Shown piece after piece: positions 19,577 to 20,064 of a DNA stretch of 64,000 nucleotides. The notes beneath the pieces were generated by a model. That model made no database searches, had not been told where the DNA came from, and saw only the letters and a list, made by a program, of their open reading frames with translations. Position 1 is the first letter of the stretch, and each line of letters begins with the position of its first letter. The DNA comes from an uncultured Granulosicoccaceae bacterium (GTDB lineage Bacteria; Pseudomonadota; Gammaproteobacteria; Granulosicoccales; Granulosicoccaceae), in assembly GCA_937951345.1 (NCBI GenBank), contig CALFCF010000015.1:1-64000 (forward strand), read 5' to 3'. The translations under genes were made by a program, and so were the position numbers.

Positions 19577-19614
19577 CGGCCATCACCTTACGCGCAGGCG
19601 TAGGATGATGGCCG
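19577..19614. terminator. Bidirectional hairpin between convergent genes
   Basis: A two-part perfect stem: 9 bp (19577-19585 with 19606-19614), then a small internal loop, then 5 bp (19589-19593 with 19598-19602) and a 4-nt loop. It lies between the convergent quinone oxidoreductase and thioredoxin-like genes and could end transcription from either side. No T-run follows. Confidence 0.65.
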
Positions 19615-19650: not shown

Positions 19651-20064
19651 CTATTCAGGTGCAATAGCCGCTTCGAAAAGTTGACTGATTTTTGATTTCG
19701 ATGTGCCGGCGATTATTCGTTCTAACTCATTTCCGCCGCGAAACATGACAAGCGTTGAACGTCGCGGAATCTTCAGCTCAGATACAACCGCAGAAGAACG
19801 GTAGGTATCCCAGTCCACGTTGATCAGTCTGACTTTCTTGTATGCTGCATTGCCGGATACTAACGCACGCACGGTGCGTTTTTGGGTTCGACAAGTGCTT
19901 CACCATTTAGCGTGAAAACTGAGCAGAAACGGCTCACCGCTGGCAAGCAGAGACTCATAGAGCTCAGGGGTATAGTTTTCGTAAGCGGGCTTTTCGCTCG
20001 AAAAAACCGGCGCGGTCGCGACAAGCGATACTCCGGCAATCGACAGGAATTGACGACGGTTCAT
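19651..20064 (-). CDS. Candidate selenocysteine-containing exported thioredoxin-like protein (in-frame UGA at codon 55)
   Basis: Read through one TGA (19902-19900), this frame gives a 137-residue protein. It has a signal peptide (MNRRQFLSIAGVSLVATAP), possibly Tat because of the RR, then a thioredoxin fold. The active site reads FHAKW-U-STC: W54, UGA55, S56, T57, C58, so the stop is exactly at the first Cys of CxxC. Downstream, VRLINVDWDTY, KIPRRSTLVMFRGG (cis-Pro region) and RIIAGTS are intact thioredoxin features. No other stop or frameshift interrupts it. A hairpin 26 nt after the UGA fits a bacterial SECIS. Alternatives are a fresh nonsense mutation or a sequencing error. No sel genes lie in the window, so this needs genome-level support. 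Confidence 0.7.
19862..19880 (-). promoter_or_regulatory. Candidate bacterial SECIS hairpin
   Basis: On the minus-strand RNA, bases 20-26 after the UGA (19880-19874) pair with bases 32-38 (19868-19862). This gives a 7-bp stem with loop CGUGC at bases 27-31. The loop begins 26 nt from the UGA and has G as its second base. As I recall the published bacterial SECIS consensus (loop 16-37 nt from UGA, 4-16 bp stem, 3-14 nt loop, G in the first two loop bases), it fits on all four counts. An alternative pairing shifted by 4 nt with a 3-nt loop exists. Confidence 0.55.

Follow-up and report, generated by a model that had tools for sequence, protein, structure and literature searches.

The Locus and Its Reading Frame

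The gene described here lies on the minus strand of a 64,000-nucleotide window (the whole stretch of DNA that was analysed) from an uncultured member of the Granulosicoccaceae (Table 1). If TGA is translated as U, the frame 20064-19651 (-) reads MNRRQFLSIAGVSLVATAPVFSS...FHAKW-U-STC...APE* and comprises 138 codons including the terminal TAG; the 137-residue product, in which the TGA counts as a residue, is MNRRQFLSIAGVSLVATAPVFSSEKPAYENYTPELYESLLASGEPFLLSFHAKW-U-STCRTQKRTVRALVSG...FEAAIAPE. The TGA at 19902-19900 is the only internal in-frame stop and forms codon 55, i.e., the first active-site Cys position of thioredoxins, within the motif W54-U55-S-T-C58. With the standard code, the sole ORF called in this interval is a 73-aa GTG fragment, and the complete protein is missed, as the initial annotation had anticipated. 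TGA terminates 20 of the 46 long ORFs in the window and is the commonest stop there, which argues that UGA is not globally reassigned. The possible terminator listed in Table 1 is missing from the sites of the hairpin scan, in which the loop limit was 8.

Table 1. Features assigned to the locus (coordinates refer to the window).
Feature	Position	Strand	Details and basis
Predicted exported thioredoxin-like selenoprotein, CDS	19651..20064	minus	137 aa, TAG stop; translation, Pfam, AlphaFold2, homologues
Putative N-terminal export leader, twin arginine (MNRRQFLSIAGVSLVATAPVFS), Tat-like	19999..20064	minus	conserved RR; TAT_signal weak
UGA, predicted selenocysteine 55, residue 1 of UxxC	19900..19902	minus	TGA in 23/23 of the Sec group; TGT/TGC in 9/9 of the Cys group
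Codon of the putative resolving Cys58 of UxxC	19891..19893	minus	translation; invariant in the homologue alignment
bSECIS-like hairpin, AACGCAC-CGUGC-GUGCGUU	19862..19880	minus	7 bp; conservation, covariance model R1
Possible transcription terminator, imperfect GC-rich inverted repeat	19577..19614	minus	3' of the gene; by eye

Thioredoxin Fold and Putative Export Leader

Reading through the TGA had been proposed to join a leader and the N-terminal half of a thioredoxin to the C-terminal half, and the translation bears this out: the joined protein matches the Pfam family Thioredoxin (PF00085; E 8.7e-10, 39 bits, gathering cut-off 23.5) over residues 32-129, so that the two parts flanking the TGA form a single domain. 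AlphaFold2, supplied with the family alignment, predicts a confident thioredoxin fold (mean pLDDT 87.8, about 97 over residues 31-130), and the closest PDB structures to this model are all thioredoxins. The protein scores 36.4 bits against the classical thioredoxin equivalog TIGR01068, which is below the curated cut-off of 96.8. Ser103 stands at the usual cis-Pro position before T-L (R-R-S-T-L, window 19750-19764), and in the relatives listed this position is S, A or G, so that the cis-Pro of classical thioredoxins is lacking. Replacement of cis-Pro in thioredoxins is tied to altered active-site chemistry and to metal binding.

The leader carries the sequence N-R-R-Q-F-L-S, to be compared with the Tat consensus S/T-R-R-x-F-L-K. 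Its match to the Pfam model TAT_signal is weak (E 0.047, below the cut-off); R3 and R4 are nearly invariant among 32 homologues, and the low pLDDT of residues 14-25 in the AlphaFold2 model fits a cleaved leader. The presence of the twin arginine throughout the family suggests Tat export of a folded protein.

Conservation of the In-Frame TGA

The genome to which the window belongs (G000; 4.49 Mb, 95.5% complete) contains a second thioredoxin copy on contig C16, which is 50% identical to the window protein and is interrupted by TGA at the equivalent position (ASW-U-PVC). Altogether, 17 of the 36 Granulosicoccaceae genomes searched, G000 included, have the TGA form in one or two copies each, and these homologues are 43-55% identical to the window protein. 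Ten other genomes of the 36 have an uninterrupted form, one of them as a partial gene in which codon 55 falls outside the sequence. The initial annotation had suggested inspecting codon 55 in homologues for Cys or TGA, and exactly these two states were found: the aligned codon is TGA in 23 genes from the 17 genomes and TGT or TGC in nine genes from sister genomes, which also places the TGA at the first Cys of a W-C-S-T-C motif, as had been claimed. Frameshifted relatives, which would have pointed to a pseudogene, were absent from the homologues examined. For gene pairs with dS <2, the median dN/dS among the TGA genes is about 0.19 before the TGA and 0.23 after it, which indicates that both halves are under purifying selection; together with the single internal TGA, this agrees with the earlier description of both sides as open and protein-like.

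These observations bear on two rival explanations. The TGA might be a chance point nonsense mutation that leaves a dead or truncated thioredoxin, a reading to which the isolated position of the window gene, without the adjacent CcdA gene seen in its relatives, and the broken gene reported by a simple gene caller would lend themselves. However, a random hit on exactly this codon, judged improbable from the start, would have to account for TGA at the same position in 23 related genes, the second gene of G000 among them, and for purifying selection on both halves; we regard a pseudogene as very improbable. Alternatively, the letters at 19900-19902 could be a sequencing or assembly error for TGC or TGT, given that sister genomes have Cys codons at codon 55. 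The same TGA recurs in many separately assembled genomes, and with the codon conserved in 23 genes, a read error is implausible and the least probable of all the alternatives weighed here.

A SECIS-Like Hairpin Downstream of the UGA

A hairpin occupies positions 20-38 past the UGA, within the coding sequence, with its five-base loop 26 nt from the UGA. Constraints formulated for bacterial SECIS elements (bSECIS) comprise an apical loop of 3-9 nt, an upper stem of 4-16 bp, a G in the first two loop positions, and a distance of 16-37 nt between loop and UGA (PMC13188914). The window hairpin lies within these limits (7 bp stem, loop CGUGC, 26 nt spacing). Its folding energy alone is close to that of shuffled sequences (z -0.68 for the window gene and -1.65 for the paralogue) and not significant, and the case for the hairpin is therefore built on conservation rather than on energy.

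The hairpin, as AGCGCAC-CGUGA-GUGCRCU or a close variant, is present in all 23 TGA genes, with CGUGC or CGUGA as the apical loop, and is missing from all nine Granulosicoccaceae Cys genes. The codons inside it are frozen (entropy 0): Thr64 is ACC and Val65 is GTG in 23/23 genes, and Ser66 is AGT in 19/19, whereas two to five codons are in use at conserved Thr, Val, and Ser sites in other parts of these genes (entropy 0.9-1.8). Only one stem pair has changed on both sides, four sequences having A-U in place of G-C there, and the scores of slid controls are far lower; three stem pairs are invariant, and the third pair is a C-A mismatch in most relatives (15 of 21 rows). When the whole genome was searched with the covariance model R1, it matched the two thioredoxin genes only (E 2.7e-9 and 1.5e-8; next match 0.6). 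The retention of the hairpin in TGA forms only is a further argument against a pseudogene, and its location downstream of the window TGA also speaks against a read error.

Selenocysteine Machinery in the Same Genome

A search of the genome for selA, selB, selD, and tRNA-Sec had been recommended, and all four are present in G000: SelA scores 563 bits, SelB 363 bits (cut-off 242), and SelD 233 bits (cut-off 125), and the tRNA-Sec, with the anticodon UCA, scores 65.9 bits and is also found by ARAGORN. The genes for tRNA-Sec, SelA, and SelB are clustered on contig C23. A second tRNA-Sec-like match in G000 was identified as tRNA-Ser.

Within the sel cluster lies a PrdB/GrdB-like gene with an in-frame TGA of its own (...LLPV-U-PNC...; L020:8075-9247 on C23). 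PrdB/GrdB is a known selenoprotein family. With this machinery and the additional UGA gene, G000 has a complete Sec apparatus and a further, unrelated selenoprotein gene. Model R1 does not match the PrdB-like gene in G000, since the stem differs, but the UGA of this gene is likewise followed by a CGUGA apical loop. The same loop on a different stem in an unrelated gene suggests that the CGUGA loop is what SelB of this lineage recognises. A gene for SelO (YdiU family) adjoins the sel cluster (L020:5528-7075, minus strand).

The codon could in principle also be read as an amino acid other than Sec, if a suppressor tRNA or a near-cognate one decoded it or if this organism has reassigned UGA; SECIS-free read-through does occur in some genes. 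A complete Sec machinery, the predominance of TGA among the stops of the window, and the exchange at codon 55 with Cys alone, the pattern anticipated for Sec, leave this explanation with hardly any weight. Taken together, the exchange of UGA and Cys, the conserved hairpin, the complete machinery, and the purifying selection on both halves argue that the window gene encodes a true selenoprotein, a Sec-containing thioredoxin with the active site W-U-S-T-C, for which we estimate a probability of about 0.93.

Distribution and Exchange of Sec and Cys Forms

Among the Granulosicoccaceae, the form of the thioredoxin goes along with the machinery: SelB exceeds the cut-off in 15 of the 17 genomes with the Sec form vs. 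none of the 10 that have an uninterrupted form (Fisher p 8e-6, a value that ignores relatedness). The draft genome G019 has a TGA gene and a tRNA-Sec of 78 bits, with SelA and SelB not found; the draft G001 has a TGA gene and a SelB fragment only, with no match to SelA. G014 has the Cys thioredoxin, no SelA match, and no SelB over the cut-off. A strong tRNA-Sec (66 bits; contig C67:2626-2717) stands beside this Cys content of G014 and could be either a remnant or the sign of an assembly gap.

A sample of 369 genomes from the class yielded no additional Sec form, and the predicted Sec form is thus restricted, among the genomes searched here, to Granulosicoccaceae. An organism-named scan showed Cys homologues to be common in Roseobacteraceae and Paracoccaceae; the pattern used for it held W-Cys, and therefore only Cys forms could be returned.

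About three changes between the Sec and Cys labels are needed on the protein tree. The window gene branches close to the base of the Cys group, with weak support for this placement (80/95, open fork). In G016, which has no SelA match and no SelB over the cut-off, the Cys gene falls within the Sec genes of the tree; this genome therefore looks like a reversal from Sec to Cys that accompanied loss of the machinery. In G017, two TGA copies lie in tandem (contig C44:16326-17334, L027/L055), and the selenoprotein gene seems to have been duplicated locally there.

Association with CcdA and a Proposed Role in the Envelope

CcdA, a member of the CcdA/DsbD family, is a membrane carrier that moves electrons outwards from cytoplasmic thioredoxin. 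A CcdA gene adjoins the C16 copy of G000, one Sec copy each in G001 and G002, and, among the Granulosicoccaceae Cys forms, that of G016 and the majority of the rest. The same arrangement is found in the Cys thioredoxins of Rhodobacterales (Roseobacteraceae, Paracoccaceae), which adjoin ccdA in 78 of 80 named loci, are 38-53% identical to the window protein, and share the residues around its active site; they differ in having Cys where the window protein would have Sec. The check for the hairpin covered the Granulosicoccaceae Cys forms, from which it is absent. Many Sec copies have no CcdA neighbour, and the window gene, too, stands alone. As a stand-alone paralogue, its product would therefore depend on the CcdA encoded on C16, an electron donor that we infer, since no CcdA gene is adjacent.

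The conserved RR leader and the CcdA gene next to most homologues are the grounds for proposing that the protein is a CcdA-fed thiol reductase of the envelope or periplasm, which we consider probable, with less assurance than the assignment as a selenoprotein. In this pathway, SelB and tRNA-Sec(UCA), directed by the hairpin, would insert Sec at the UGA at 19902-19900, and the protein would be folded and then exported by Tat. In the periplasm, Sec55 would attack the disulfides of partner proteins, Cys58 would resolve the mixed selenenylsulfide, and the oxidised Sec-Cys pair would be re-reduced by CcdA with electrons from cytoplasmic thioredoxin.

A true selenoprotein could also serve in another way, e.g., as a partner of a peroxidase, as a metal- or selenium-binding carrier, or as a cytoplasmic protein. 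Such a role would accord with the Ser in place of cis-Pro, the weak Tat score, and the many Sec copies that lack a CcdA neighbour, that of the window among them, but not with the conservation of the RR leader, nor with the CcdA partner of most homologues, which three genomes of the genus also have beside Sec copies. We therefore consider a function of this kind rather unlikely, though far from negligible, and favour the CcdA-fed reductase.

Relation to Known Selenoproteins

Thioredoxin (Trx) UxxC proteins are listed as an experimentally verified selenoprotein class (PMC13188914), in agreement with the initial annotation, which had called UxxC proteins of the thioredoxin fold an established class, and several Trx-like selenoprotein families came from the marine GOS survey (PMC2398784). 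With the Trx UxxC selenoproteins (PF00085), the window family has in common the thioredoxin fold, the predicted Sec as first residue of the active site, Cys homologues with CxxC, and the SECIS-like hairpin past the UGA. It differs by the twin-arginine leader, Ser for cis-Pro, the link to CcdA, the restriction of the Sec form to Granulosicoccaceae in this search, and a score far under the TIGR01068 cut-off. It thus seems to be a new subfamily of the established class rather than a new type of system, and it is apparently unreported: no papers linking Granulosicoccus with selenocysteine or Granulosicoccaceae with selenoprotein were found in a search that covered the subscription literature thinly.

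More broadly, and as a tentative proposal whose parts jointly fall a little short of even odds, the Granulosicoccaceae may have a lineage-specific selenoprotein system in which genes as unrelated as the exported thioredoxins and the PrdB/GrdB-like reductase share the apical loop C-G-U-G-A/C, in which a CcdA-fed Sec thioredoxin without cis-Pro carries selenium chemistry to the envelope, and of which G016, without SelA, SelB, and hairpin, represents a natural reversal from Sec to Cys. Every Sec form of the gene is split by standard-code gene callers, and an exported redox protein and a requirement for selenium would thereby be hidden in this family of bacteria. The occurrence of Sec and Cys forms in one protein family, with and without hairpin and sel genes, amounts to a clean natural experiment, and because both forms coexist there, what an envelope thioredoxin gains from Sec, and at what cost, becomes testable.

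The NCBIfam selenoprotein models SaoT, GOS_C, and HUIPC do not match the window protein (E up to 1). The nearest solved fold is Trxlp of Edwardsiella (PDB 5zf2, 5zpv; Foldseek E 4e-9, 31% identity), which also lacks the cis-Pro (Q-S-T-L) and has Cys in the solved sequence; the likeness is one of fold, and functional equivalence is not claimed. TsoB (NF045694), a selenoprotein resembling a rhodanese/DsbD fusion and the only one of the named NCBIfam families with a match, differs in being a single large fusion with UxxxxU. The window thioredoxin matches it weakly (E 1.5e-4, 20 bits); for the CcdA encoded next to the C16 copy, the match is to the DsbD-like membrane part of TsoB (E 9e-10, 37 bits). 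Both scores lie far below the cut-off of 805 bits.
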